Positions 23,279 to 37,458 of a stretch of 45,132 nt of DNA are shown piece by piece (position 1 is the stretch's first letter; every line of letters starts with the position of its first letter). This DNA comes from Alphaproteobacteria bacterium. Its GTDB lineage: Bacteria; Pseudomonadota; Alphaproteobacteria; GCA-2731375. A program made the position numbers and the translations under genes. The notes below the pieces were generated by a model. The model searched no databases, had not been told where the DNA came from, and saw only the letters and a program-made list of their open reading frames with translations. The DNA lies in assembly GCA_016869175.1 (NCBI GenBank), contig VGEV01000010.1, forward strand, positions 1 to 45,132, in the 5' to 3' direction.

Positions 23279-24232
23279 CTAGCGCTGACTGTCGCCGACC
23301 GCGGTGCCGAGCGGTCCATTCAACGCCCACGCCGCCACGTCGGCCCACACCTGTTCCGCTTGCAGATCGCGCAGCAGCATGTGCCAGCCGGAGGGATAGC
23401 GGCGCAGCGTCGGCTTCATGCCGCTGTCGGCGAACGGCCGCAGGATGCTGTCGGGCGGCAGCACCTCGTCCCGCTCGCCGACCAGCACCAACAGCGGTCG
23501 GCCGACCCGTCCCGCAACGGCATGCGCCGCGTCCATCAGTCGAACAAGGCCATGCACGGCATCGAGCCGGGTCTGCTTCAGCACCAAGGGATCGTTCGCC
23601 AGGGCGCGCAGCATGGGGACGTTGTCGCTCGGCCTTCGCCGCAACTCGGCTCCGCCGGCATGGTTCCACGGCATGACATGCGCCCCCACCCAGACCGCCG
23701 CGCGGAACAGGCCGTTGAGCTCCGGCCCACCCCACAGCGCCGGAGCCACCAGGATGCCGCCCGCGGCCTCGTCACCGCCCTGGCTCAGCGCCAGCACGGC
23801 AACGGCACCCCCCATGCTTTCGCCCAGCAGGAAGACCGGCACGTCGGGGTGACGCGCCTTGACCGCCCGCAACACCGCGCGCGCATCGGCCGCCAGCACT
23901 TCGTGCGCCGCCCAAATGCCCGGTTCGGGCGCAGCCCCGAAACCGCGTTGATCATAGGCATAGGTGACGACGCCTTGCCGGCGCCACCAGGCGGCTGGCG
24001 CCTCGAAGGCGCGGCGATAGTCGTTGAACCCGTGCAGGGCGACGATGGCCGCGATCGGCGGGCCGGACGGCTGCCACACCGTGAACGGCAGGCGCGCGCC
24101 GTCGGCCGCGACGAAGACCTCGGCCTCCAGCCTCGGTGGGCCGAGCGGCGGGCCGGCGAGCTGCACGCGCGGCGCGCAGGCGGCCAGCGCCAGCCCAAGT
24201 CCCAGCACGATCGATCCGATGCGCCGCCTCAT
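23279..24232 (-). CDS. Alpha/beta hydrolase lipoprotein (lysophospholipase-like, serine aminopeptidase S33 fold)
   Basis: A predicted lipoprotein of 317 residues. The signal peptide ends in LALAAC with the lipidated cysteine at residue 19. The hydrolase core shows IVALHGFNDYRRAF, the nucleophile elbow GESMGG (S139), the acid D255 in GERDEVLPP and the histidine H284 in SGWHML. This is a complete triad, and the arrangement matches monoacylglycerol lipase / lysophospholipase relatives. It would act at the inner or outer membrane on the periplasmic side. Its ATG overlaps the stop of the uracil-DNA-glycosylase-family gene by four bases. The natural ester substrate is unknown. Confidence 0.85.
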   Translation of the reverse strand: MRRRIGSIVLGLGLALAACAPRVQLAGPPLGPPRLEAEVFVAADGARLPFTVWQPSGPPIAAIVALHGFNDYRRAFEAPAAWWRRQGVVTYAYDQRGFGAAPEPGIWAAHEVLAADARAVLRAVKARHPDVPVFLLGESMGGAVAVLALSQGGDEAAGGILVAPALWGGPELNGLFRAAVWVGAHVMPWNHAGGAELRRRPSDNVPMLRALANDPLVLKQTRLDAVHGLVRLMDAAHAVAGRVGRPLLVLVGERDEVLPPDSILRPFADSGMKPTLRRYPSGWHMLLRDLQAEQVWADVAAWALNGPLGTAVGDSQR

Positions 24233-24819
24233 TGCTCGATCACGGCACGCACCCGTCGGCGCAATTCGGGTAGCACATCCGCGGCGAACCAAGTGTTGCG
24301 GCGCTCCCAGCCGCCGGTCCGCCAGGACGGGTGCGGCAACGGCAGGCAGCCGGGCAGGTAGTCGCGAAAGGCGGCGACCGTCTCGGTTAGACTGGCCTTG
24401 CGGGCATCGCCCAGATGCCAGGCGATGGCGTATTGCCCAATCGTCAGCATGAGTTCGACCGCGGGCAACAGCGCCATCAGTCGGTGGTGCCAGGCCGCGG
24501 CGCATTCCGGGCGCGGCGGCAGGTCGCCGCCCCGCGCGTCGCGCCCGGGGTAACAGAAGCCCATGGGCACGATGGCGATCCCGCGTTCGTCATAGAACTG
24601 CGCCGGCGAAAGGTCGAGCCATTGCCGCAAGCGCTCGCCGCTGCGGTCCTGCCAGGGAATGCCACTCGCATGCACCCGTGTGCCGGGCGCCTGGCCGGCG
24701 ATCAACAGTCGCGCGCGGCGGCTCGCGCGCACGATCGGTCGCGGCCCCAACGGCAGATGCGGGACGCATAGCCGGCACCGGCGAATTTCGCTGAGCAGCT
24801 GGTCAAGGGGCGGCGACAT
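24229..24819 (-). CDS. Uracil-DNA glycosylase superfamily protein
   Basis: A protein of 196 residues. The first motif, LLIAGQAPGTRVHASGIPW, resembles motif A of family 4/5-like glycosylases. LPLPHPSWR near the C-terminus is motif B. CRLC near the N-terminus recalls the iron-sulphur ligands of family 4 enzymes, but the other two cysteines are not evident, so cluster binding is doubtful. It may remove uracil or a related damaged base from DNA; some relatives of this shape have unknown substrates. The ATG at 24819 is the first plausible start, with no strong ribosome binding site. It is divergent from the MORN-domain gene at 24876, only 56 bases away. Confidence 0.78.
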   Translation of the reverse strand: MSPPLDQLLSEIRRCRLCVPHLPLGPRPIVRASRRARLLIAGQAPGTRVHASGIPWQDRSGERLRQWLDLSPAQFYDERGIAIVPMGFCYPGRDARGGDLPPRPECAAAWHHRLMALLPAVELMLTIGQYAIAWHLGDARKASLTETVAAFRDYLPGCLPLPHPSWRTGGWERRNTWFAADVLPELRRRVRAVIEQ

Positions 24820-24875
24820 GGCGGCGATGCTCTGACAGCGGGTTCGGCTATAGTAGTCTGGCAGAGGGGGGCAAC

Positions 24876-26081
24876 GTGAAGGGCTTGGCAACGCGAGCGG
24901 CGGGAATGACCTTGGCGGGGATGTTGCTGGCCGTGCCCGAGGCGGGCGACGCGGCGCCGGCCGGCTTCATTGTCGATCCAACCAGCAATTGCGGCACCAG
25001 CAATCCGTTTCCGCGACCGGGCGAAAGCATCCGCTGGCAAGGCGGCTGCCGGGACGGTAAGCTGCAAGGCCGCGGCGTGTTGACTTGGTACGAGAGTAAC
25101 AAGGAATACGAGCGCAACGACGGGGTGTTCGCTGACGGCGAGCTGGAGGGCGAGGCGATCGTCAGCTTCGCCAATGGCAATCGCATCTATGGCAACTATC
25201 GACGGGGCATCCGCGACGGCGAGTTCACCGTGGTCCGCCCGGACGGCAAGCGGATCCGCGCGACCTACCAGAACGGCGCCTTCGTTACCGAACGGCTGCT
25301 GCGAGCCGAGGAGGCAGCCGCGTTCGAGGCGGATCGCCAACGGCTGGAACAGCGGTTGGGCGGCGTGGCATCCACGGCTTCCGGGCCGCCAGCGGCAACC
25401 CCTTCGCCAGCCGCTCCGGCACCCGTGGCGGCCACCCGAGCGGCGGACTCGCCGCCCGGCGCCACCCCAAGTCCGCGCCCACTCGCGGCCCCACCCGCAC
25501 CCGCGGCCCCGCCCCTGCCCGCGGCGGTGGCGCCGTCGATCCGCCTGCCGGCAGCGGCCGTCCCCCCAGCAACGGCAGCGCAACCGGCCATCCGCGCGGG
25601 CGCCGCCGCCCGGCGCGCCGAACCGCCGATCCGGCTCCGCCCGCCACCCGAATTGGCAAGCGCCTGGACAACGGCCGACTACGGCCCGGAGACACTGGTG
25701 ATCGACAGCCGCAGCGCGCGCGATTTTCCGCGCCAAGCGGGCATGCTGCGCCTGCCGCTCGGCGGGCCGCCGTCCGCCCCGCCGGAAACGGCGGCGCAGC
25801 GCCCGACGGTGCCAGCGGCGCAGAGCGGATTGCGCTACGCTGTGCGCATCGTCGACTGGCCAGTGGCAGAGGCGGCGGCGCTGTTGTTCGGCACGGTGAT
25901 CCAGCGGCCCTACCGGATCGATCCGGCGGTCAGTGGCCGCATCAGCATCACGCCGGCGCAGCCGGTCGACGGCCCCGAGGCGACGGCCGCGTTGGCCGAA
26001 GCCTTGCGGCCGCTCGGCGCCGAGTTGCTGAGCACGGCGGAGGCGCTGGCGATCGTCCCCGCCGGCCGAAGGCAGCGCTGA
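24876..26081 (+). CDS. Exported MORN-repeat protein with a C-terminal secretin N0-like domain
   Basis: 401 residues from a GTG preceded by GAGGGGGGCAAC. A signal peptide (residues 1-26) is followed by MORN-like repeats at about 50-140 (GRGVLTWYESNKEYE, YGNYRRGIRDGEFTVVR). A proline/alanine-rich linker spans about 150-270. The C-terminal 80 residues (319-398) read YAVRIVDWPVAEAAALLFGT, then PYRIDPAVSGRISI and AEALRPLGAELLSTAEALAI. The order of strands and helices matches the N0 domain of the GspD gene 1.2 kb downstream (ITLNFVGADLREVAQVVLRD, YTIDADVRGTVTLEF, ALEASGAALLRAPGVYRI). Such a domain in a separate protein beside a type II secretion operon suggests it docks to, or mimics, the secretin's periplasmic ring. 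The domain call is by pattern only. Function is unknown. Confidence 0.72.
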   Translation: MKGLATRAAGMTLAGMLLAVPEAGDAAPAGFIVDPTSNCGTSNPFPRPGESIRWQGGCRDGKLQGRGVLTWYESNKEYERNDGVFADGELEGEAIVSFANGNRIYGNYRRGIRDGEFTVVRPDGKRIRATYQNGAFVTERLLRAEEAAAFEADRQRLEQRLGGVASTASGPPAATPSPAAPAPVAATRAADSPPGATPSPRPLAAPPAPAAPPLPAAVAPSIRLPAAAVPPATAAQPAIRAGAAARRAEPPIRLRPPPELASAWTTADYGPETLVIDSRSARDFPRQAGMLRLPLGGPPSAPPETAAQRPTVPAAQSGLRYAVRIVDWPVAEAAALLFGTVIQRPYRIDPAVSGRISITPAQPVDGPEATAALAEALRPLGAELLSTAEALAIVPAGRRQR

Positions 26082-26097
26082 CCGCGCCGTCGCTTGC

Positions 26098-26125
26098 TTG
26101 CGCCCGATCGCTGTTTCAGTAGAGT
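26098..26125 (+). promoter_or_regulatory. Weak sigma70-like promoter candidate
   Basis: TTGCGC at 26098-26103 and TAGAGT at 26120-26125 are separated by 16 bases, just upstream of the gene starting near 26154. Each hexamer matches four of six consensus positions. In such GC-rich DNA this could be chance; it would let the PPC-domain gene be expressed apart from the MORN-domain gene. Confidence 0.28.
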
Positions 26126-26153
26126 GCGGAGAGAAGCAAATCGGGGGAGTGGG

Positions 26154-27317
26154 GTGTTGCGCGAACGAGGCAGGGTGCGAGCCTTGACGACGCTGGCGAT
26201 GTTGTCGCTCAGCGCGGGTTTGGCGCAGGCAGGCAGCCTCACCGTTGCCAGCGGCCAGGGCGGCGAAATCTTCGACATCGGCCTGAACCGCCTGATCGCC
26301 AGCCACCGCGCCGAATCGGCGAGCTATTTCAGCGGCGTCGATACCACCAGCAGCAGCCGCGAGCAGTGGTACAATCCGATCGCCGACCGCAACGGACTAT
26401 ACGGACCGGCGGACATGACCACCGCCGAGACCATGTGGTCCAAGGCCAACCTGCGGGTCTACGACCTGTATGAAGCCTTGGGTGGCAATGCCATTGATCT
26501 GCGCCAGGTCTATCGCCATCAATCGGGCCGCTTCTATGTGGCGCTCGACACGGTCGGCGGGCAGTGGTTCGCCACCGCCGAAGACGCCCGCGGCTATATG
26601 CTGAAGCTGCTGATCCAGCGCAGCATCGAGCTGCCGCAGGGCGTCCGTAGTGCAATGGCGCAGCTAGCCGCCAACGATCTGGAATCCGTCACCGGTGCCG
26701 CGCGCACCTCGCTGGCCAGCGCGCGTGCCTTCTTGGCGCGCGGCAGCAGCACCGCCGCGACGTTGACCGGCACCGGCTTCTCCGACGCGGACGGCGCTCC
26801 GTCGGTGCAAGGGCCACCCGGCGTGACAGTGCGCAATGTCGTTTTCGATAGCGGCAGCCAGTTGCGCTTCACCATCGATGTCGAGCCGACCGCGCGACTG
26901 GGGGCGGGGCGGCTGGCCGTATTCAACGGCGGCACGGCCATGGTGCCGGTCGATCATGCCGAAATCCATGTTGTGGATGGCGGCACCGGCTTCGCTGGCC
27001 AGGGCGGCGGAAGTGGGCCGATCGCCCTGCCGCTTGCGGTGCCGACGGCGAGCGCCATCGCCACCAAGGGCGAGGAACGGACGTTCAACCTGGTATTGCC
27101 GACCGCCGGTACGCTCACCGTCGCGTCCGTCGGCGGCACCGACGTCAGCGCGCAATTGCTGCGGGCCGACGGCACGCTCGAAGCCAGCAACGACGATGGC
27201 GGCAACTGGTACAATTTCCGCATCCAGCGGACGCTTTCAGCCGGCAATTACAGCCTGAAAGTGCGGCATTGCTGTCAGGGCGTCGGCGAATTCACCCTCA
27301 CCGCGACACTGCAATAG
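26154..27317 (+). CDS. Secreted protein of unknown function with a C-terminal PPC-like beta domain
   Basis: About 387 residues with a signal peptide ending in LSLSAGLAQA. The mature protein begins with a helical, tyrosine- and tryptophan-containing region of unknown type (EQWYNPIADRNGLYG, NLRVYDLYEAL). A beta-rich middle follows (TLTGTGFSDADGAPSV, LRFTIDVEPTARLGAGRL). The last 90 residues, from ERTFNLVLPTAGTLTV to GNYSLKVRHCCQGVGEF, look like a bacterial pre-peptidase C-terminal (PPC) domain, which is usual in secreted enzymes. No protease or glycosidase motif is visible. The start is uncertain: GTG 26154 and TTG 26157 both follow GGGGGAG. It converges on gspD with ten bases between stops, so it is a candidate cargo of that system. 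Confidence 0.68.
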   Translation: MLRERGRVRALTTLAMLSLSAGLAQAGSLTVASGQGGEIFDIGLNRLIASHRAESASYFSGVDTTSSSREQWYNPIADRNGLYGPADMTTAETMWSKANLRVYDLYEALGGNAIDLRQVYRHQSGRFYVALDTVGGQWFATAEDARGYMLKLLIQRSIELPQGVRSAMAQLAANDLESVTGAARTSLASARAFLARGSSTAATLTGTGFSDADGAPSVQGPPGVTVRNVVFDSGSQLRFTIDVEPTARLGAGRLAVFNGGTAMVPVDHAEIHVVDGGTGFAGQGGGSGPIALPLAVPTASAIATKGEERTFNLVLPTAGTLTVASVGGTDVSAQLLRADGTLEASNDDGGNWYNFRIQRTLSAGNYSLKVRHCCQGVGEFTLTATLQ

Positions 27318-27327
27318 GTCAGCCGGT

Positions 27328-29544
27328 TCACTCGAACAGGCCGCGCCCCAGCAAGCCGCTGCCCGGCGGCGCGAAGCGCCGGGGCTGACGCAAGCCGCTC
27401 TCTTCCTGCTCCAGGATCGCCTGGTAGCGCCGGCGGATCTCAGCGGACAGATCGCGCGCTTCGCGCTGACTGCGCACCACGACCGGACGCAGCATCACCA
27501 GAAGCTCGGTGCGCCGCAGGTCGGCTGCCTGGTTGCCGAACAGCACCCCGATCACCGGCAGGTCACCCAACACCGGCAGGCTGCTCTTGGTGTCGGTGTT
27601 GCTCTCGCGGATCAGGCCGCCCAGCACCACCGTCTCGCCGCCATGCACCGCCACCGTGCTGACGATCTTGCGCTGCTGGATGGTGGGCGAATTGATGGTC
27701 GAGGTGGTGGTGGGCACCACATCGCTCACCTCTTGCCCGATCTCCAAGGTGACGAGGCCGCTGGCATTGACCCGCGGCGTCACCTCCAGGGTGACGCCGG
27801 TGTCGCGGTATTCCACCGTGTTCACGGTGCGCGCGTCGGCGGTGAAGGTGCTGGTTGAGAACTGGGTGATGATCGGCACCTGGTCGCCAACCCGCAGCTT
27901 GGCCGACTGGTTGTCCAGCACCATGACCTGCGGCGAGGAGACGACGTTCACTTCCGTCAATTGCGACAGCGTATCCAGGATGAAGCGTGCCTGATCGGCA
28001 TCGGCCAGCGTGAAGGCGAAACCCGGAAAGCTTGGCTGCAGCAAGCCGGTCGCCACCGAGGACAGCACGGCCGAGCCGTCGCGTGTGATGTTGAAGCCAC
28101 CCGACTTGATGAAATACTGCAGGCCGAAGCGAAGCTGGTCGCGCAGTGTGACCTCGAAGATATTGGCTTCGATCATCACCTGCAGCGGTTGAATATCGAG
28201 CTTGCTCAGTACCTCCTCGATCAGGACGTATTCTTCCGGACTCGCGAGCACCAGGACCGCGTTGTTCTTTTCGTCCGCTATGATGCGAACGCTCTCGGCA
28301 CCGCTGTTGTTCGCGCCGGCGGCAGGCCGGCTCGCCGGTTGCGGGGCGCCTTGCGGCGGTGGTGGCGGCAAACCTTGGCCAGGCTGGCCAAGCGCCGATT
28401 GCTGCGCCAGCGCCGGCGACAATTCGACGCCGGCGACCGGCGTCCTGTCTTCCGTGCCCGGCTGGAACACGCCGCGCAGGGTCTTGGCCAGATCGCCGGC
28501 TTTGCCGTTCTGCGCATAGTAGACAAACAGCCGCCGGACCTTGGCATTGCGCGTGCGGTCCAGGCGCGCGATCCAGCTGCGCGCCTCTTCCAGGTAGCGC
28601 GGTTGCTTGGCGAACACCAAGATGGCGTTCATGCGCTCGATCGGCACCAGGCGCACCTGGCCGGCAAGCGGCCCCTTGTCGAGGCCGCCGAAGACATTGT
28701 CGAGCTCGAATGCCAGCGTGCCGACATCGACATGCTCCAAGCTTTCCAGCAGCACCGATGTGCCGGCGAGCTGGTCGACGTCGAACAGCTGCACCGTCTG
28801 CCCGACCAGGCGCTGTTCGCGGCTGTTTCCGGCGACGATCAAGAGGGCGCGGGCGGCATCGGCGCGCACCAGGCGGCCCTCACCCACCAGCGGCTCTACC
28901 ACCTTCTTGATTTCCTCGGCGCCGATGAAACGCAACGGATAGACCGCGACGGTGAAGCCCGCTTCGCCGGTTCCCGCGGGTCCAACGGCGCTCAAGCCCG
29001 CGCGGCGTCCGGCGGTGGCGGCGCTGGCGATACGATAGACCCCCGGCGCCCGCAGCAGTGCGGCGCCGGATGCCTCCAGCGCCACTTCCAGTATCGGCAG
29101 TAGGTCCTCGCGCGCCACGGCTTGCGCGAATTCCAGCGTCACCGTGCCGCGCACGTCGGCATCGATCGTGTAGTTGACGCCCAAGAGATCGCGCAGCACC
29201 ACCTGCGCCACCTCGCGCAAGTCGGCACCGACGAAGTTGAGCGTGATGTCGCCGCGTTGCGCCGGTTCCGGCCGCCGGGCGCCGGCCAGGTCTGCCGTGC
29301 GGCCGGTGCCCGGATAGATCTCGGCGATCTTGCCCGTGTCGCGCGGAGGGTTGAGCGGCCGGGCCGCCACGGAATCGCCGACCGATGGGCTGGGCACGAT
29401 GGCCGCCACCGACTCGGGCTGCCGGACGGCCGTCGCCTGACGCTTGGGCTGCACCCCGCAGCCGGCCAGCGCTGCCGCAACGCAAGCCGCCGCCAGCCAG
29501 GCGAGGCCGCATCTTACGCGTCGGTTGGAAGCAGGGGCCGGCAT
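27328..29544 (-). CDS. gspD: Type II secretion system secretin GspD
   Basis: Outer-membrane secretin, the exit channel of the type II system, 738 residues. It is a lipoprotein precursor with cysteine 29 in AALAGC. A basic, proline-rich stretch precedes the N0 domain (from about residue 100, ITLNFVGADLREVAQ). N1, N2 and N3 repeats follow, the last interrupted by a Q/P/G-rich loop (LGQPGQGLPPPPPQGAPQP). The secretin core carries VGDQVPIITQ, VTLEVTPRVNASGLV, VVLGGLIRE and SLPVLGDLPVIGVLFG. The lipobox suggests self-piloting to the outer membrane. The ATG has no clear ribosome binding site. Last gene of the operon, 35 bases after the GspC-like gene. Confidence 0.95.
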   Translation of the reverse strand: MPAPASNRRVRCGLAWLAAACVAAALAGCGVQPKRQATAVRQPESVAAIVPSPSVGDSVAARPLNPPRDTGKIAEIYPGTGRTADLAGARRPEPAQRGDITLNFVGADLREVAQVVLRDLLGVNYTIDADVRGTVTLEFAQAVAREDLLPILEVALEASGAALLRAPGVYRIASAATAGRRAGLSAVGPAGTGEAGFTVAVYPLRFIGAEEIKKVVEPLVGEGRLVRADAARALLIVAGNSREQRLVGQTVQLFDVDQLAGTSVLLESLEHVDVGTLAFELDNVFGGLDKGPLAGQVRLVPIERMNAILVFAKQPRYLEEARSWIARLDRTRNAKVRRLFVYYAQNGKAGDLAKTLRGVFQPGTEDRTPVAGVELSPALAQQSALGQPGQGLPPPPPQGAPQPASRPAAGANNSGAESVRIIADEKNNAVLVLASPEEYVLIEEVLSKLDIQPLQVMIEANIFEVTLRDQLRFGLQYFIKSGGFNITRDGSAVLSSVATGLLQPSFPGFAFTLADADQARFILDTLSQLTEVNVVSSPQVMVLDNQSAKLRVGDQVPIITQFSTSTFTADARTVNTVEYRDTGVTLEVTPRVNASGLVTLEIGQEVSDVVPTTTSTINSPTIQQRKIVSTVAVHGGETVVLGGLIRESNTDTKSSLPVLGDLPVIGVLFGNQAADLRRTELLVMLRPVVVRSQREARDLSAEIRRRYQAILEQEESGLRQPRRFAPPGSGLLGRGLFE

Positions 29545-29579
29545 GGACGCACGATCATAGCGGCCGCCCCGATGCTCGG

Positions 29580-30062
29580 CTATTGGCCTTTGCCCTTGTT
29601 CCCGATCGGCAGTTCCTGCGGGCCGTTGCGGCCGCTCACCACGACCCGGTCCTTGGTGATCCGCTCGATGCGCACGCCTTCGATCACCTCGCCTTCCTTG
29701 ACCCGACGAATGGGCCCGCCTTCGGCCGGACGCAGCAGCAGCAGCCGCTGGCCGGGGGCCACCACGACGCCGCCGAACCGGTAGCGCCCGAACAGCAGCC
29801 CGTCGGCCGGTGCCGGCGGCAAATCCGGCGGCAGCCGCCGGGTGGCGAGGAAGAGCGGCCGCCCGATGGTCGCGCGCATATCCTCGAGGCGCGGCAGGCT
29901 GGCGGTCGGATCGGCGAAGCTGGACGGTGCGGCGACGGCGGCATCCGGCGGCGGCGGGGCTGGCGCCGGCCGCTGCCATAGCGCCACGGCCAACGGCAGC
30001 AGGGCCAGGACGCAGGCCAAACCCAACAGGCGCGCCAGTCGGCGTCGACCGCCCAGGGTCAT
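29580..30062 (-). CDS. GspC-like inner-membrane protein with HR domain and no PDZ domain
   Basis: 160 residues: a short basic N-terminus, one membrane helix (residues 8-27, LARLLGLACVLALLPLAVAL), a proline/alanine linker and a small beta domain. The beta domain (LLFGRYRFGGVVVAPGQRLL, GGPIRRVKEGEVIEGVRIER) resembles the homology region of GspC/PulC, which contacts the N0 domain of GspD. GspC normally has a further PDZ or coiled-coil domain of about 100 residues, and none is present. GspN-like naming is possible. Its ATG overlaps the gspM stop by four bases. The short form makes the nearby MORN-N0 protein more interesting as a possible replacement partner. Confidence 0.75.
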   Translation of the reverse strand: MTLGGRRRLARLLGLACVLALLPLAVALWQRPAPAPPPPDAAVAAPSSFADPTASLPRLEDMRATIGRPLFLATRRLPPDLPPAPADGLLFGRYRFGGVVVAPGQRLLLLRPAEGGPIRRVKEGEVIEGVRIERITKDRVVVSGRNGPQELPIGNKGKGQ

Positions 30063-30643
30063 GAGCCGGCAGGGGCAAGAAAGCCCCACACGTCGAACCG
30101 GATGTCAAGACTGGGCTCGCCGGGCGCGGCGGCGGCGGTTCGCGAGCGCACATAGAGGGCATCCAGGAAGACGAACGGGCGACCCACCTCCAGCGCGCAG
30201 ACGAGTCTCTGCAGGGCGCCCGTGTCGGCGACCAGCCGCACCCTCAGGCCAAGCTGCGGGCCGCCGTCCTGGCTACGGACCGGCAAGGCCTCCAAGCTGA
30301 CCAAGCGGGCGCCGCCGGACGCCACGGCACGTTTCACCCGTTCCTGCAAGGCGGCCGTTGCCTGCGCCTCGCTGCCGGTCGCCAGAAACACGTTCTGCAG
30401 CGCGGGCGCGCGCCGCAAGGCCTCGACCTCGGCCCGCAACGCCTCGCGCCGGGCCGCCAGTTCGCGCAGCCGAACAAGGCCGTCCTCGGCCGTGGCCACC
30501 GCCGCCCGCAAACCGGACCGGGCGGGAAGCTGGACGCTCATCGCCAGCGACAGCAGCAAGCCGACGGCGGCCAGCAGCAAGGCGAAAGCCAGCACCCTGG
30601 CCTGCCTGTGCGGCATCAGCCGCAATCGGGCGAGCAACGTCAT
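30059..30643 (-). CDS. gspM: Type II secretion system protein GspM (subtype b)
   Basis: An inner-membrane platform component of 194 residues. One membrane segment at residues 17-36 (VLAFALLLAAVGLLLSLA) is followed by a predicted coiled coil (RLRELAARREALRAEVEALR) and a ferredoxin-like periplasmic domain (ALQNVFLATGSEAQATAALQ, LRLVADTGALQRLVCALE). The pattern matches the short T2SSM_b type. The start overlaps the gspL stop by four bases, as expected for a translationally coupled GspL-GspM pair. Confidence 0.83.
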   Translation of the reverse strand: MTLLARLRLMPHRQARVLAFALLLAAVGLLLSLAMSVQLPARSGLRAAVATAEDGLVRLRELAARREALRAEVEALRRAPALQNVFLATGSEAQATAALQERVKRAVASGGARLVSLEALPVRSQDGGPQLGLRVRLVADTGALQRLVCALEVGRPFVFLDALYVRSRTAAAAPGEPSLDIRFDVWGFLAPAGS

Positions 30644-31650
30644 CGCCGGCGGACTTCCACGCTCAACTGGAACTGCTCGCGTCGGCTTACCGGGTCGCTG
30701 ACCACTGGCGCCCGGAAACTCACCTTGCCGAAATGCGGCGAGGCCTCGATCACCGGCACCAGCGCGGCCGTCGACGTCGTCGAGCCTTCCAGCTCCACCC
30801 GGCCGTCGACCAGGTTGAACTGCCCGAGCCAGGCTTCATCGGGCAGCCGGTTTGACAGATCCTCCAGCAACACCGCCACGGAACCGGCGGCGGCCTTGCC
30901 GCGGAAGGCGCGTTCGCCGCCGCCGCTCAGCCGTTCGCGCTCGCGCAACAGCGCCGCCGCCTCTTCCGCCGCCGGACGCAACTGCACCGCCGCGCCGGCA
31001 AGTTCCGTCAGACGTTGACGCCCCTGCCAGAAAGGCACCGCCAAGGCGGCCAGCAGCTGGGCTGCCAGGAACGCCAGCAACAGCCCATTCAGCCAACCGA
31101 TCCCACCCGGCGGTCGCGCCAGACCCGGCACCGTCAACGGCCCGGCCTCGGCCAGTTCGACCGCCGCGACCGCCAGCCCGGCCCGGCTCGCCGCCTGGAG
31201 TTCGGCGTCCACCCTCGCGCGCGGCACCGCCCAGAGAAGCGCCCGCAACCGATCGCCCTCGCGGCCAAGCAGACGATGGCCGAAATACACCTGCGAGGCC
31301 TGGAACGGCGTCAAGCGATCCATCTCGAAGCGCAGGACCTGGCCCAGATTTTCGGCCGCCGCGGCCGGCAGTTCGACCGGGCGGAGCAAGCCGGTCGCGG
31401 CCGGCAGGCGCAGCGTGACCAACGCCTGCCGCGCAGCCTCGCGCCAAGCGGACGGCGGCTCATCGCCGGCCACCGCCGGCAGGGCCTGCGTGCGGCCGGC
31501 CCGCGCCAGTCGAGCCGCCAAGCCGTCGGCGGCCGGTTCCAGCAGCAACCGGTCCGGCTCGATACCCAGGCAGCGGCGCAACCAAGCCGGCAGGCCCGCC
31601 ACCAGCGTTTCGATCCACCACGACAATAGGCCGGTCAGCCGGTAGCCCAT
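30640..31650 (-). CDS. gspL: GspL/PilN-like type II secretion platform protein
   Basis: 336 residues. The N-terminal cytoplasmic part (LSWWIETLVAGLP, NLGQVLRFEMDRLTPFQASQ) is a reduced version of the actin-like GspL domain. One membrane helix follows (WLNGLLLAFLAAQLLAALAV, about residues 186-206). The periplasmic part resembles PilN: a coiled coil, then VAVLLEDLSNRLPDEAWLGQ and STTSTAALVPVIEASPHFGK. It would recruit the GspE ATPase to the membrane. The ATG at 31650 is chosen because family members begin near this point; an alternative GTG at 31680 has AGGA eight bases upstream. It stands 186 bases after gspK, the only real gap in the operon. Confidence 0.8.
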   Translation of the reverse strand: MGYRLTGLLSWWIETLVAGLPAWLRRCLGIEPDRLLLEPAADGLAARLARAGRTQALPAVAGDEPPSAWREAARQALVTLRLPAATGLLRPVELPAAAAENLGQVLRFEMDRLTPFQASQVYFGHRLLGREGDRLRALLWAVPRARVDAELQAASRAGLAVAAVELAEAGPLTVPGLARPPGGIGWLNGLLLAFLAAQLLAALAVPFWQGRQRLTELAGAAVQLRPAAEEAAALLRERERLSGGGERAFRGKAAAGSVAVLLEDLSNRLPDEAWLGQFNLVDGRVELEGSTTSTAALVPVIEASPHFGKVSFRAPVVSDPVSRREQFQLSVEVRRR

Positions 31651-31790
31651 GCCCCGCTGGTCGTTCTCCGCCGCCGTCACCGTTGCGTTCCTAGCCCGTG
31701 CAACCCGTCCTCGGCGCCATCGGCCCTGGCCCTGCCGTAGCGTGCATCGCTTCGCGCCAAGCGGCGCGGTCATGCGGCAACAGGCGGCGG

Positions 31791-31819
31791 ACGCTAGCAT
31801 CGCGCCGGCCGCCCGACAA
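31791..31819 (-). promoter_or_regulatory. Internal promoter candidate between gspK and gspL
   Basis: Read on the minus strand, TTGTCG (31814-31819) and TAGCGT (31791-31796) are separated by 17 bases in the 186-base gap. The -35 matches four of six consensus bases and the -10 three. The gap in an otherwise overlapping operon is the main reason to suspect a promoter here. Confidence 0.25.
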
Positions 31820-31836
31820 CGCGCGCCTGGCCATCA

Positions 31837-32715
31837 CTATTGCGCCCGGCCGTAGCCAGGCTCCCGCCACGCCAGCAGCGCGAACGGCGCCGGCGCATCG
31901 CCGCGCAGCCACACCACCGCTTCGCGTCGCCAGTTGGCGCCCGAAGGCAACGGCGCCTCGGCGGCGACGGTGAAGGCCAGACGGTGGCTCTGCGTCAACA
32001 GGCCCGCGGCGCCCGGGATCGGCGGCAAGGGCAGCACCTGCTGCGTCCTGGCCGCCTGCCGGCGCAGTTCCAGCAACCGTTCGATCGCCTCGCCATCCGC
32101 ACCAACCCAGGCGAGCGCCCGCAGCAAGCCGGCCGGGGCGGCGCCTGCATCGATGCCGTTCAGGCCGCTATGCACGGTGACCAGCGGCGCCAGGCGACGG
32201 AACAGGTCGTCCGTCATGTCGGGCAGCAACAGCAATTCGGCGATATCGAGGAAACCGGCATCCTCCGGGCGGGCGCCACCGAGGGATTGCTCGGCCGTGC
32301 TGCCACGCCTGCCCAGCACCGCCGTGGCGAGGCGCTCGGCCGGGCGGGCGGCGACGCCGGCGGCGCGCAGCGCCGCCTCGATGAGCGGACGCGGCGCCGC
32401 GTTGAGATCGACCTTGCCGGCTTCATCGACCAGGGTGACCGCGAGCGTGACCCCGCCCAAGGCGATTTCCAGGTGCTGCGTGCCATCGCCGTCCTGCCAG
32501 CTGGGCAAGCCGGCATCCTTGGCAAAGCGCCGCAAGGCGAGATGCACGGCGCCGTCGGCCAAGTGCCGCGCGCGCGCCAGGTCCAAGGCGCCGGCGCTGG
32601 CCGCCAATTCGGAGCGGGCGGTCAGGGCCAGCGCGGCGATCAGGCCGGCGGCCAGCAGCAACGCCCAGAACACCAGCAGCACCGCGGCGCCGGCCTGACG
32701 CTTGGGGACGCTCAT
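31837..32715 (-). CDS. gspK: Type II secretion minor pseudopilin GspK
   Basis: The largest minor pseudopilin, 292 residues. The prepilin leader is short and basic (SVPKRQAG), processed before AAVLLVFWALLLAAGLIAAL. The glutamate at position five of the mature protein is absent, as in other GspK proteins. The body contains the expected helical domain with VDLNAAPRPLIEAALRAAG and a second region, GLNGIDAGAAPAGLLRAL. With GspI and GspJ it forms the pseudopilus tip. The ATG overlaps the gspJ stop by four bases. Confidence 0.87.
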   Translation of the reverse strand: MSVPKRQAGAAVLLVFWALLLAAGLIAALALTARSELAASAGALDLARARHLADGAVHLALRRFAKDAGLPSWQDGDGTQHLEIALGGVTLAVTLVDEAGKVDLNAAPRPLIEAALRAAGVAARPAERLATAVLGRRGSTAEQSLGGARPEDAGFLDIAELLLLPDMTDDLFRRLAPLVTVHSGLNGIDAGAAPAGLLRALAWVGADGEAIERLLELRRQAARTQQVLPLPPIPGAAGLLTQSHRLAFTVAAEAPLPSGANWRREAVVWLRGDAPAPFALLAWREPGYGRAQ

Positions 32716-33293
32716 CGGTCCGCCGCCTTGAGCCTGGGCGCCAGCACCAGTTCCGGCCAATCGGTCCGGCCGCCCGCGAAACGCAAGCGCACCAGCGTCG
32801 GCAGCTGCCCGCGCAGGCGCCATTCTGTGGCGTCCGCTCCGTCCGCCCCTTGGAAGCGGAAATCGCCAACCCCGGTTCCGGCCGCCAGCAGGCGACGCTC
32901 GGCCCCGGCGAGGTCGAGGCTAGGCGCCGCCCCGCCGAGCGGCCGCCAGCGGAGCCACAGCGCGTCCTCGCTGGCTTCGATGCGCAGCACATGCAGCCCG
33001 CGGCCGATCGCCGCCGGGGGCAAGGCGATGAAGGTGACCGAATTGGCGGTACCAGCGAACAGCAGCAGCCGCGCGCGCTCACCGGGCACCGGCAAGGGCA
33101 GCGCCGCCTCGAGCTGACGGCGCAGGAAGTCCTGGGTAAGCCGCAACTCTTCCAGTCGCTCCGCCGTGCGCTCGCCGCGCTGCAAGGCAACGGCTCCCAG
33201 CCGCAGCCCCTGGCCCAACAACAGGGCGACCAACACCAGCAGACCGAGCGCCACCAGCACTTCCAGCAGCGTGAAACCCGACGAGCGTGTCAT
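32712..33293 (-). CDS. gspJ: Type II secretion minor pseudopilin GspJ
   Basis: 193 residues. Prepilin cleavage site SSG-FTLLEVLVALG with glutamate at mature position five, then a long helix ending in RTAERLEELRLTQDFLRRQL. The globular part is beta-rich (GLHVLRIEASEDALWLRWRP). GspJ is part of the tip complex. The ATG overlaps the gspI stop by four bases. The identity as GspJ rather than another minor pilin rests on length and on gene order. Confidence 0.87.
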   Translation of the reverse strand: MTRSSGFTLLEVLVALGLLVLVALLLGQGLRLGAVALQRGERTAERLEELRLTQDFLRRQLEAALPLPVPGERARLLLFAGTANSVTFIALPPAAIGRGLHVLRIEASEDALWLRWRPLGGAAPSLDLAGAERRLLAAGTGVGDFRFQGADGADATEWRLRGQLPTLVRLRFAGGRTDWPELVLAPRLKAADR

Positions 33294-33667
33294 GGGCGCC
33301 CCGCCGGTTCGGCCGGCAGCAGTCGCGCCGTGACGAGCCGCACCTCGCCGCCTTCGCCGGTGTCGACCGCGACCTCGATCTGCACCGGCCGGACGCCCGG
33401 GCCGGGCGGCGCCAACGGGGCAAGCGAGCGGCGCCAGGACAAACCCTCTTCACTTCGCCCTTGCGTTGCTTGGATGGCGGTCGGCAGCTCCGCCGCCTCG
33501 ATAAGCAGACGCTCGGCAAGGCGCAGCGCCGCGGCGCGCCGATCGCCAAGCTCCGCGGCACGCAGCGTCTGGCGCGACAGCGCCAACAACGGCTGCAGGA
33601 CCAATACGGTCAGGGCGAGCGCCACCAGCACTTCCAGCAAGGTAAAGCCGCCGGGCCCAGGCTTCAC
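33290..33667 (-). CDS. gspI: Type II secretion minor pseudopilin GspI
   Basis: 125 residues starting with a GTG that overlaps the gspH stop by four bases. The leader GPGG precedes FTLLEVLVALALTVLVLQPL, a canonical pseudopilin N-terminus. The helix continues into RRAAALRLAERLLIEAAEL and is followed by a small domain. Size and order between gspH and gspJ support GspI, which seeds the tip complex. The open frame extends upstream through gspH and beyond, but that extension is not coding. Confidence 0.85.
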   Translation of the reverse strand: MKPGPGGFTLLEVLVALALTVLVLQPLLALSRQTLRAAELGDRRAAALRLAERLLIEAAELPTAIQATQGRSEEGLSWRRSLAPLAPPGPGVRPVQIEVAVDTGEGGEVRLVTARLLPAEPAGRP

Positions 33668-34137
33668 GGGCGCAGGCTGACGCGGCCCGTCAACCAATCG
33701 ACCGACAGCCGGACCAGCCGCTCCCGGTGGTGAAACGAGACGGCGCCGCCGCCGCTGCTGCCGTCGGCGTGGAACCGGATGGCCTTGGCGCCCGCGTTCG
33801 CCGTTTCGCCTTCGACCCGCAACACCGTGCCGGTCGGCAATCCGGGCAGGCTGCGCACCGCTTCGTCCGCCAGCCGATAGCGCCCGCCCGCGGGATCGAT
33901 GCTGACCACGACGTCGTGCTGGCGCTCCAGCGCGAGCTGCCGCGCGCGCTTCAGTTCGCCGGCCAATTGCCGGGCCGCCGCAGTCGGATCGGACGCCGGG
34001 AGGCGGGCGGCAAACGGCACCAGCAGCCCGAGCGTCCCGGCGAGGATCGCCAGCACCACCAGCAGTTCCAGCAGCGTGACGCCCCGCTGAACCGGCGCAG
34101 GCGAAGGGCCGGCGGCGTGGCGGCGAGGCGCGGCCAC
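33664..34137 (-). CDS. gspH: Type II secretion minor pseudopilin GspH
   Basis: 157 residues from a GTG that shares a base with the gspG stop (TAGTG). The leader is unusually long, about 19 residues, and ends in VQRG before VTLLELLVVLAILAGTLGLL. Position one of the mature protein is therefore valine, not the usual phenylalanine. The rest (RARQLALERQHDVVVSIDP, VRLSVDWLTGRVSL) matches the GspH/FimT layout. It is thought to join the major pilus to the tip. Confidence 0.85.
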   Translation of the reverse strand: MAAPRRHAAGPSPAPVQRGVTLLELLVVLAILAGTLGLLVPFAARLPASDPTAAARQLAGELKRARQLALERQHDVVVSIDPAGGRYRLADEAVRSLPGLPTGTVLRVEGETANAGAKAIRFHADGSSGGGAVSFHHRERLVRLSVDWLTGRVSLRP

Positions 34138-34589
34138 TAGCGCCGCCAGTTAGCGATGTCGGCGGCTTCGCCCTCGCCGCCCTCGGTCGCATCGGCGCCC
34201 AGGCTGAACAGATCGTAGTCGAGGCCGTGCCGGCTGGGCCGGCGGTAGACATAGGGCCTGCCCCAGGGATCGTCCGGCAGCGCCTGAGCCTTGAGATAGG
34301 GCCCGCGCCACACCGCGACGTCGGCCGGCCTGGCGATGAGCGCCTTCAGGCCCTGCTCTTGCGTCGGATAGCCGCCGACATCGAGCCGGTAGAAATCGAG
34401 CGCGGTCGCCAGGCTTTCCACCTGCAGCCGCGCCGCATCGCCCTTGGCCCGGCCGAAATAGTCGATCACGCGCGGACCGACCAGCGTCACGATCAGGCCC
34501 AGGATCGCCAGCACGACCAGCACTTCCAGCAGCGTGAAGCCGGCCTCTGCGGGCCGGCGGCGTATCCGTCGTTCTGTCACAGCTCCCAT
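34137..34589 (-). CDS. gspG: Type II secretion major pseudopilin GspG
   Basis: 150 residues. The leader ends in PAEAG and the mature part begins FTLLEVLVVLAILGLIVTLV. YPTQEQGLKALI and DPWGRPYVYRRPSRHGLDYD are conserved GspG segments. The C-terminal SLGADATEGGEGEAADIANW is the calcium-binding loop of the family. The chosen ATG at 34589 shares a base with the gspF stop (TAATG), giving a leader of 17 residues; an earlier frame opening lies inside gspF. This is the main pilus subunit of the system. Confidence 0.92.
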   Translation of the reverse strand: MGAVTERRIRRRPAEAGFTLLEVLVVLAILGLIVTLVGPRVIDYFGRAKGDAARLQVESLATALDFYRLDVGGYPTQEQGLKALIARPADVAVWRGPYLKAQALPDDPWGRPYVYRRPSRHGLDYDLFSLGADATEGGEGEAADIANWRR

Positions 34590-35800
34590 TACGCCAGTTC
34601 GTAAAGCCCGACCACCGAGGAAATCAACGCCCAGACGATGGCGCCGACGAGACAACCCAGCAGCAAGGTGACGATCGGCACCGCCAGCGCCGCCAGCCGT
34701 CGCGCCAGCGCGCGCGCCTGTCGGCCCTGCATCTCGGCCGCGCGCTGGCTCATCAGCGCAAGGCCGCCGCTGGCCTCGCCGACGCGCAGCAACTCGACCG
34801 CGGTCGCCGGAAACCCCGGCTCAGCCAGCAGACCCGGCGCGAATGGGGCGCCGGTGCGGACCGCTTGCGCGGCCGCGGCGGCCAGTGCCGTCATGGCGCG
34901 ATTGCCAAGCGCCGCGGCGGCCAACTCCGCTGCCTCGGCCAGCGTCACCCCACCCCGCAGCAACGCCGCCAGGGTGCGCAAATAGCGCTCGGCCTCCAGG
35001 CTGGCCACCAGGCGGCCGGCCACCGGCAGACGCAACAGCCAGCGGTCGACGGCCAAGCCCGCGGCGGCGCCCCGTCGCCACCGGCGGAACCCAAGCAGGG
35101 CGAGCAAACCGGCCAGCAGCACCGGCAATCCCCAGGTGCCGATGCCCTCGGACAGGGCTGCCAGCAGTCGCGTCGCCAACGGGGCGGAGCGCCCGGCATC
35201 GCGGAACAATGCCTCGAACTGCGGCACCACGAAGACGAGCATGTAGAGCAGCGAGAGACCGGCGAATACCAGCAGGATGACCGGATAGACCAGGGCCGAA
35301 CGGACTTCCGTCCGCGCTTCGTCGGCGCGTTCCAAATAGTCGGCCAGCGCCTCCAACGCTGGCAGCAGACCGCCGGAAGCCTCGCCCGAGCGCAGCATGG
35401 CCACGGCAGCGGGTGCGAAACCCAACTCGCTCTCGGCCAGTGCCGCCGATAGCGGCTGGCCGCCGCGCACCCTCGTGGCGGCCACGCGTGCCGCCGTCGC
35501 CGCGCGACCGCGCCCCAGTTCTCCCGCCAATGCCAGCGCGCGCTCGACCGGCAGGCCGGCGCCCAGCAATGTCGCCAGCTCGCGTACAAGAAGCGCGCGA
35601 TCGCGCCCCGCCGCGCCGCGCCGTCTGCGGCCGGTCGCGGCCGTTCTGGCCGAGCTCGATTCGCTGGGCGCTTCCGCGCTGAGCGTTACCTTCTGTTGCT
35701 GGCGCAGCCGCAGCACCAGTTCCTCGCGCGAGGCGGCGTCGAGTTCGCCTTGCTCGATGGCGCCATCCGGGGCAACCGCGCGATATCGATAGCGCGGCAT
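34589..35800 (-). CDS. gspF: Type II secretion inner-membrane platform protein GspF
   Basis: 403 residues, three membrane helices and two repeated cytoplasmic helical domains. The N-terminal MPRYRYRAVAPDGAIEQGEL is typical of GspF. Each half contains the family signature: LRSGEASGGLLPALEALADY in the first and LLRVGEASGGLALMSQRAAE in the second. Membrane segments are VYPVILLVFAGLSLLYMLVF, GLPVLLAGLLALLG and a last one near the C-terminus. The frame is open far upstream across gspE, but that is a shadow, not a fusion. The ATG follows the gspE stop by five bases. Confidence 0.93.
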   Translation of the reverse strand: MPRYRYRAVAPDGAIEQGELDAASREELVLRLRQQQKVTLSAEAPSESSSARTAATGRRRRGAAGRDRALLVRELATLLGAGLPVERALALAGELGRGRAATAARVAATRVRGGQPLSAALAESELGFAPAAVAMLRSGEASGGLLPALEALADYLERADEARTEVRSALVYPVILLVFAGLSLLYMLVFVVPQFEALFRDAGRSAPLATRLLAALSEGIGTWGLPVLLAGLLALLGFRRWRRGAAAGLAVDRWLLRLPVAGRLVASLEAERYLRTLAALLRGGVTLAEAAELAAAALGNRAMTALAAAAAQAVRTGAPFAPGLLAEPGFPATAVELLRVGEASGGLALMSQRAAEMQGRQARALARRLAALAVPIVTLLLGCLVGAIVWALISSVVGLYELA

Positions 35801-35805
35801 GGGCG

Positions 35806-37458
35806 CTAGGCTCGGTCGATGACGCGGGCGACTTCCTCCAGGCTGGTCGCGCCTTCCGTCACCTTGGCCAGCGCGGCAGCGCGCAGGTCGATCATGCCGT
35901 CCGCCCTGGCCAGCCTGGCAAGCCCCGCCTCGTCCGTTCCGCGGGCGATCTGCTGGGCCAGATCGGGCGAGAGGGTCAGCAATTCGCCGACCGCGAATCG
36001 GCCACGATAGCCGGTGCCGGCGCACGCGCTGCAGCCAGCGGCAGGGTGGACCGGCCGCGTCGCCGCCGGTCCCACGGCCGCCGGGGCCGGCAATGGCGGC
36101 GAACGCGGCCCGGCGCAAGTCGCGCACAACCGGCGCAGCAGGCGTTGCGCCAACACGCCGTGCAACACCGAGGCAAGCAAGTAGTTCTCCACCCCCATGT
36201 CGGCGAGCCGCGTCACCGCGGCCACGGCGCTGTTGGTATGCAACGTCGCCAGCACCAAGTGGCCGGTCAATGCCGCCTGCACCGCGATGCGCGCGGTCGC
36301 CGGGTCGCGGATCTCGCCCACCAAAATGATGTCGGGATCCTGCCGCAGCACCGCGCGCAACACATTCGCGAAATCCAAGCCGATTTGCGGCTTTACCTGG
36401 ATCTGGTTGACCCCGGCAAGCTGATACTCGACCGGGTCCTCCACCGTCAACACCTTCAGGCGGTCGCGGTCCAGCCGCTGCAAGGCGGCATATAGCGTGG
36501 TGGTCTTGCCGCTGCCGGTCGGCCCGGTCACCAGCACCAGCCCATGCGGGTTCGCCAGCAGCCGATCGAGACCGTCGACGAGCCCCGCCTCGAAACCCAG
36601 TTGCGGCAAAGTAAGCGGCGCGCGCTCGCGATCCAGCAGGCGCAGCACGACACTTTCTCCGTGCAGGGTCGGCACCACGCTGACCCGCACGTCGATTTCC
36701 CGCCCGCTTACGGCAACGCGGGTACGGCCGTCCTGCGGCAATCGGCGCTCGGCGATATCGAGGCCGGCGATGACCTTGATGCGGCTGACCACCGCCGCTT
36801 CCACCTGGCGTGGCAGGACGTGGCGTTCCACCAGCAGGCCGTCGATGCGCAGCCGCACCCGCACACGGTCCTCGAACGGCTCGACATGCAAGTCGCTGGC
36901 GGCCGCCTCGACCGCCTCGGCCAACAGCCGCTGGACGAGGCGGATGGTCGGCGCGTCGCTCGCCTGCTCGCTGAGCCGCCGCAGGTCGGCGTCGTCGACG
37001 GCGGCGGCCGGCCCGACGACCGCCAGCTTGGGCTGCCCGCCATGCAGGCGCTCGATGGCGCGCTCCAGTTCGCCGGCCGGCGCCACCACCCGCTCGACCG
37101 GCCGCCCGGTCAGAAGGGCGATCGCTTCCGCCGCGTAATCGTCGAACGGATCCGCCATGGCCAGCCGCAGCCCGCGCGGGTCCTCGCGCAAGGGCAACAC
37201 CCGCGTCTTGCGCAGGAATTCCAGCGCCACGCGGTCGCCCAGCACCGGCCGTTCCGGCAGCTCCTCGGGCGTCAGGCAGGCAAGGCCCAGTGTCGTTGCC
37301 AGCGCGCGGGCAAGTTCCGCCTCGCTGACCAGACCGAGGCCGGCCAGCACCAGGTGCAGGCGCTCGCCCCGGCGTTCGCTCACGGCCTGGGCCCGGGCAA
37401 GCGCCGTGGCGTCCAGCCTGCCCGCCTTCAATAGATAGTCCGCCAGCGCCTCGGTCAT
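35806..37458 (-). CDS. gspE: Type II secretion assembly ATPase GspE
   Basis: 550 residues, the cytoplasmic hexameric ATPase that drives pseudopilus assembly. The N-terminal domain contains a GspE-N fold (ALADYLLKAGRLDATALARA). The Walker A motif is GPTGSGKTTT with K318. ILVGEIRDPATA carries the aspartate box and HLVLATLHTNSA the histidine box. A zinc-binding C-terminal lobe is present, with LCATC and GCSACAGTGYRGR. First gene of the secretion operon and divergent from the TPR gene, sharing a 77-base upstream region. Confidence 0.95.
   Translation of the reverse strand: MTEALADYLLKAGRLDATALARAQAVSERRGERLHLVLAGLGLVSEAELARALATTLGLACLTPEELPERPVLGDRVALEFLRKTRVLPLREDPRGLRLAMADPFDDYAAEAIALLTGRPVERVVAPAGELERAIERLHGGQPKLAVVGPAAAVDDADLRRLSEQASDAPTIRLVQRLLAEAVEAAASDLHVEPFEDRVRVRLRIDGLLVERHVLPRQVEAAVVSRIKVIAGLDIAERRLPQDGRTRVAVSGREIDVRVSVVPTLHGESVVLRLLDRERAPLTLPQLGFEAGLVDGLDRLLANPHGLVLVTGPTGSGKTTTLYAALQRLDRDRLKVLTVEDPVEYQLAGVNQIQVKPQIGLDFANVLRAVLRQDPDIILVGEIRDPATARIAVQAALTGHLVLATLHTNSAVAAVTRLADMGVENYLLASVLHGVLAQRLLRRLCATCAGPRSPPLPAPAAVGPAATRPVHPAAGCSACAGTGYRGRFAVGELLTLSPDLAQQIARGTDEAGLARLARADGMIDLRAAALAKVTEGATSLEEVARVIDRA

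Follow-up and report, generated by a model that had tools for sequence, protein, structure and literature searches.

A MORN-repeat protein with a GspD-type N0 domain represents a protein family tied to type II secretion in Alphaproteobacteria

Introduction

The usual parts list of the type II secretion system (T2SS) comprises components C to O, a pilotin and GspAB. On a 45,132-nucleotide stretch of alphaproteobacterial DNA (contig VGEV01000010.1; the window), a gene next to a gsp operon encodes a protein, P0001, to which a first-pass annotation assigned an export signal, MORN repeats and a C-terminal domain resembling the N0 domain of the secretin GspD. Is the resemblance real, is the protein linked to type II secretion beyond this one locus, and what could a second N0-bearing protein do beside a secretin? 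The annotation knew of no described T2SS component with these two domains, and the open-licence papers that we searched agree with it, since we found in them no description of MORN proteins with T2SS, of a stray N0 domain in such a setting or of alphaproteobacterial T2SS parts of this kind.

Results

Gene and protein layout of P0001

The open reading frame lies where the first-pass annotation had placed it. It starts with a GTG codon at 24876 and ends with a stop codon at 26079-26081, leaving a coding part of 24876-26078; a purine-rich, Shine-Dalgarno-like stretch lies immediately upstream of the start, and the GC contents at the three codon positions are 0.73, 0.63 and 0.83. A scan for promoters and terminators gave no signal above chance. 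The parts of the protein are listed in Table 1 along with the neighboring genes. Since a signal peptide is predicted, P0001 is by its sequence built for export, as had been claimed, and inspection of its N terminus revealed no lipobox. The linker of about 154 residues consists of proline and alanine to 51%. Apart from N0, Pfam and NCBIfam searches of P0001 yielded no match to parts of GspD (secretin C domain, N1-N3) and no transmembrane segment with an HR domain of the GspC type, nor did Pfam reveal a pilotin domain of the PulS/OutS or AspS type.

Table 1. Features of the MORN-N0 locus in the window
Feature	Position	Strand	Basis or remark
Uracil-DNA glycosylase gene, divergent neighbor	24229..24891	-	Pfam; also beside family members in G013 and G106
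P0001, MORN-N0 protein, 401 aa (signal peptide, MORN domain, linker, N0)	24876..26081	+	Pfam, AF2, family comparison
P0001 predicted Sec signal peptide, about residues 1-27	24876..24956	+	Sequence, by eye
P0001 MORN domain with flanking helix, residues 31-162	24966..25361	+	AF2, Foldseek, alignment
P0001 Pro/Ala-rich linker, residues 165-318, predicted disordered	25368..25829	+	AF2, composition
P0001 N0 domain, GspD type, residues 320-398	25833..26069	+	Pfam, profiles, AF2, Foldseek, hhalign
Partner gene, exported PPC-domain protein	26094..27317	+	Starts 12 bases after the MORN-N0 stop; convergent with gspD
gspD, secretin, convergent	27328..29544	-	TIGR02517, 446 bits
N0 domain of GspD	29029..29241	-	PF21305, E 4.3e-10
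gspC-like gene, transmembrane segment and HR domain only	29580..30089	-	Weak T2SSB/XpsN matches; homologues
Remaining gsp operon: gspM, L, K, J, I, H, G, F, E	30059..37458	-	ORFs, homologues in other gsp loci

The MORN assignment held as well. The Pfam profile PF02493 matches P0001 below threshold (E 0.0032); the relative L079 passes the cut-off (23.2 bits versus 22.5). The AF2 model of residues 31-162 has pLDDT values of mostly 96-98, and the top Foldseek matches of this part are MORN1 proteins (6t68, 5.9e-6). Cys39 and Cys58 are invariant in the family alignment, and this pair may form a disulfide.

The C-terminal domain is homologous to GspD N0

When the C-terminal domain of P0001 was compared with the GspD of the window by BLASTP, nothing significant was obtained (E 0.95), so profiles were required for the N0 assignment. 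The Pfam profile for GspD N0 (PF21305) matched the domain alone with 20.8 bits (E 3.5e-4), below its cut-off of 27, and scored 34 bits, above it, on a relative from Oceanibacterium hippocampi (L077). We then used a hidden Markov model that was seeded from the window's own GspD and contained secretin N0 domains only. It gave 32.4 bits for the P0001 domain, 15 to 70 bits for the N0-bearing relatives and about 0 bits for family members without N0. Coming from the other side, a profile of seven N0 domains of MORN proteins, containing zero secretin sequences, found GspD chains in 13 of its 14 PDB matches (best E 4.6e-6), and hhalign aligned it with the N0 of the window GspD at 98.6% (E 9e-16).

Structure prediction gave the same answer. 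AF2 models of the family N0 domains, for which the input was shallow alignments of family members only, reached pLDDT values of mostly 81-96. In Foldseek, the P0001 N0 model matched the N0 of LspD (7pmp) at 4.6e-5, with 1.6 Å over 72 columns, and the N0 models matched XcpQ at 2e-5, the matches being N0 structures of T2SS secretins. The sequence kinship is specific to GspD, as opposed to the VirB7, PilQ and TonB-type domains. A chance resemblance is thus excluded by the secretin-N0 model, the PDB matches of the family profile and Foldseek, and we firmly conclude that the C-terminal domain of P0001 is homologous to GspD N0. The N0 call of the first-pass annotation was therefore correct on profile and structural grounds, whereas the pairwise resemblance that it had put forward does not carry the assignment by itself.

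The HR domain of GspC is known to reach the secretin through strand pairing with GspD N0, in which positions 5 and 9 make hydrophobic HR contacts (PMC3169554). Both positions are also hydrophobic in the N0 domains of the MORN family, according to an alignment read by eye.

P0001 is a short, N0-bearing form of a larger family

Strong matches to the MORN part were found in 16 genomes in a class-wide search of 385 genomes. With a MORN-domain alignment as the query, 13 loci were found; a contig scan with the P0001 sequence alone returned zero relatives, a gene-order search led to the same set of genomes that the family search had found, and a phylum-wide sample at E 1e-20 contained the family in the window's genome only. 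Generic MORN proteins, such as those of G199 and a 224-residue one of G014, were excluded by score and by their missing Cys-rich C terminus. The family is alphaproteobacterial and real, is undescribed as far as we have searched, and its members comprise about 350 to 740 residues where complete. They follow the plan of MORN domain, linker, optional N0, tetratricopeptide repeats (TPR) and a Cys-rich domain. The Cys-rich C-terminal domain of the longer members (L077:11126-11890, L070, L057 and others) has invariant Cys residues, no Pfam match and a weak resemblance to SH3/KOW-type folds.

N0 is an optional insert that the majority of members lack; its carriers are the window, G012, G039, G170, G267, G378 and O. 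hippocampi. The window protein is the N0-bearing short form: like that of G012, which is truncated at a contig end with the N0 part alone visible, it stops after N0 and has neither the TPR nor the Cys-rich domain found in the other members. Members of family f30 have no N0 and bear a lipobox; lipoboxes occur in L049, L056, L057 and L070, and relatives show TPR matches.

In a tree of 7 MORN-protein and 15 GspD N0 domains, with short rows and a long branch for L051, the MORN-protein N0s all lie on one side of a branch (support 92/84) that separates them from the GspD N0s. Because of this branch, N0 appears to have been retained for long, and an origin by recent copying from the local gspD is disfavored. 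Based on these sequences, a single capture of N0 followed by long divergence is favored over repeated copying.

The family is strongly tied to gspD

The gspD gene scores over the curated cut-off in 47 of the 385 genomes; adding clear fragments and near-threshold full-length matches yields a baseline of 53. All 16 genomes with a MORN gene are among these 53, corresponding to hypergeometric probabilities of 2e-15 by genome and 8e-7 by family (8/8, within 33/173), both calculated with shared ancestry ignored. In 10 of the 16 (the window, G043, G139, G170, G173, G267, G326, G347, G378 and G383), the MORN gene shares a contig with gspD or other gsp genes and is close to them; in G039 it is at a contig break, and in G100, G106, G212, G303 and G380 it is on a contig other than that of gspD. 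At L056, L057 and L070, all from one family, the gsp genes up to gspK, the MORN gene and the PPC gene follow each other in a single direction, and in O. hippocampi the MORN-N0 gene directly adjoins gspD, with no PPC gene found between them. These data indicated a strong genomic tie of the family to gspD, and the suggested link to type II secretion was borne out in many genomes, with homologues located mainly near gsp genes. Since most family members have no N0, that domain is dispensable for the link.

Within the window's own family, gspD exceeds the cut-off only in G000, G012 and G014. G013 (83% complete) has kept a MORN protein that has neither N0 nor an adjacent PPC gene, and no gspD was detected in this genome; its MORN-only gene is possibly a relic after loss of the T2SS. 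This relative (L010:8713-9480) lies beside a uracil-DNA glycosylase gene.

A PPC partner and lipobox-bearing secretins

The PPC gene is usually the next one after the MORN gene across the family, and at several loci the two overlap or are separated by a few bases. A full-length PPC protein is encoded in 18 of the 385 genomes, all 18 of which have gspD, mostly convergent beside it; in two, G242 and G325, the PPC gene lies beside gspD and no MORN gene was found. Most PPC proteins carry a C-terminal HCC motif.

The end of gspD is 1.25 kb from the P0001 gene, and its N0-coding part is about 3 kb away on the opposite strand. The likely true start of gspD is an ATG that yields the lipobox LAGC; the open frame itself reaches 30162. 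The additional stretch at 29545-30162, about 600 bases beyond the likely start, spans the gspC gene, so that an automatically annotated GspD may have a wrong N terminus. A lipobox-like Cys precedes N0 in all 15 GspDs that we inspected, including that of the window, and in the window's genome no member of the GspS or AspS families was found. The sequences suggest that self-piloted lipoprotein secretins, of which HxcQ is an example (PMC3542185), are the rule in Alphaproteobacteria.

Discussion

What P0001 may do at the secretin

We lean toward seeing in P0001 one form of a periplasmic accessory protein, so far undescribed, of the alphaproteobacterial T2SS, a scaffold with N0 docking. Close to the outer membrane, the MORN domain would offer a scaffold or a binding platform; the linker would give reach, such that the MORN domain may sit away from N0, and N0 would dock in the periplasmic vestibule of the machine, either through β-strand pairing with GspC HR in the manner of GspD N0 or by packing alongside the N0 ring of GspD. 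In this way P0001 and a partner bound to the MORN domain, perhaps the PPC protein, would be held at the secretin, and members without N0 might reach the machine via their TPR or Cys-rich domain. In support of an accessory role, G013, in which gspD was not detected, also lacks N0 and the adjacent PPC gene. In a bolder version, to which we give somewhat less than even chances, the family is a T2SS subunit that brings a further set of N0 domains into the secretin vestibule and competes with or supplements GspD for GspC HR, the PPC protein being part of a dedicated module.

In a different and rather unlikely reading, the PPC protein would be a substrate dedicated to the T2SS; the MORN protein would either escort it through the periplasm or be secreted along with it, and N0 would steer the two into the secretin. 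PPC domains are characteristic of secreted proteins, and the tight linkage of the MORN and PPC genes fits; however, the MORN-N0 gene of O. hippocampi adjoins gspD directly, with no PPC gene found between, and no MORN gene was found in G242 and G325, where a PPC gene is present. Confinement of N0 to self-association, with no contact to the T2SS and the gsp linkage arising for other reasons, would have a parallel in Xanthomonas VirB7 (XAC2622), since N0-fold domains of unrelated envelope proteins can oligomerize (PMC3093366). We consider it improbable, given that the N0 sequences are related specifically to GspD and that the family is so strongly associated with gspD.

P0001 may recruit or cap the secretin, as the first-pass annotation proposed; two other functions that it named did not stand up. 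The lipid anchor and TPR of f30 recall pilotins of the PilF/Tgl type, and the lipoboxes of L049, L056, L057 and L070, the TPR matches and the lack of GspS and AspS families in the window's genome would suit a pilotin-like or secretin-assembly lipoprotein. But a lipobox is missing from P0001 and from the other members that carry N0, and a pilotin may be unneeded because the inspected GspDs, as HxcQ does (PMC3542185), bear a lipobox-like Cys of their own; piloting of the secretin is thus quite improbable. We see hardly any chance that P0001 stands in for the PDZ domain missing from the C terminus of GspC: the GspC of the window is indeed short and HR-only, but G014 likewise has an HR-only GspC and yet no family member, most members lack N0, and no PDZ-like domain was present in the members scanned. 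The scaffold with N0 docking remains the reading to which we lean.

A MORN/PPC pair conserved with gspD in at least 8 alphaproteobacterial families, in one of them inside the gsp operon, would be an overlooked module of this machine, and a secretin docking domain on an accessory protein would offer direct access to the question of how GspC locates the secretin during T2SS assembly.

Comparison with known systems

P0001 resembles GspD N0 (PF21305) in sequence profile, in fold and in the hydrophobic strand of HR contact. It differs from GspD in that the N0 of its family sits at the C terminus or in the middle of a non-secretin protein, with neither N1-N3 nor a secretin domain. Likewise, its N-terminal domain has the same repeat and fold as the MORN proteins MORN1, junctophilin and MORN4; unlike them, it is exported, carries a conserved Cys pair and is fused to N0.

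The nearest precedent comes from type IV systems, where Xanthomonas VirB7 XAC2622 and Legionella DotD contain N0-fold domains (PMC3093366). Like P0001, itself a probable accessory, these exported secretion accessories carry a stray N0 fold behind a disordered stretch. Their N0 is related by fold, whereas P0001 is encoded at a T2SS locus, has a MORN domain and bears an N0 of GspD-type sequence; moreover, unlike VirB7-N0 of the XAC2622 type, the N0-bearing MORN forms have no lipid anchor. In its proposed way of working, the family is comparable to GspB/OutB and the ExeAB scaffold, in which an accessory ties the secretin to envelope parts through an N0-HR contact; there GspB supplies the HR domain that binds GspD N0 (PMC9239104), whereas here the accessory itself bears the N0. 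Finally, secretin N-domains on separate proteins are also known from the mitochondrial T2SS, in the form of GspDN1-N3. Those pieces are of the N1-N3 type and the mitochondrial GspD is without them (PMC8134430), whereas GspD in the present system retains its own N0.
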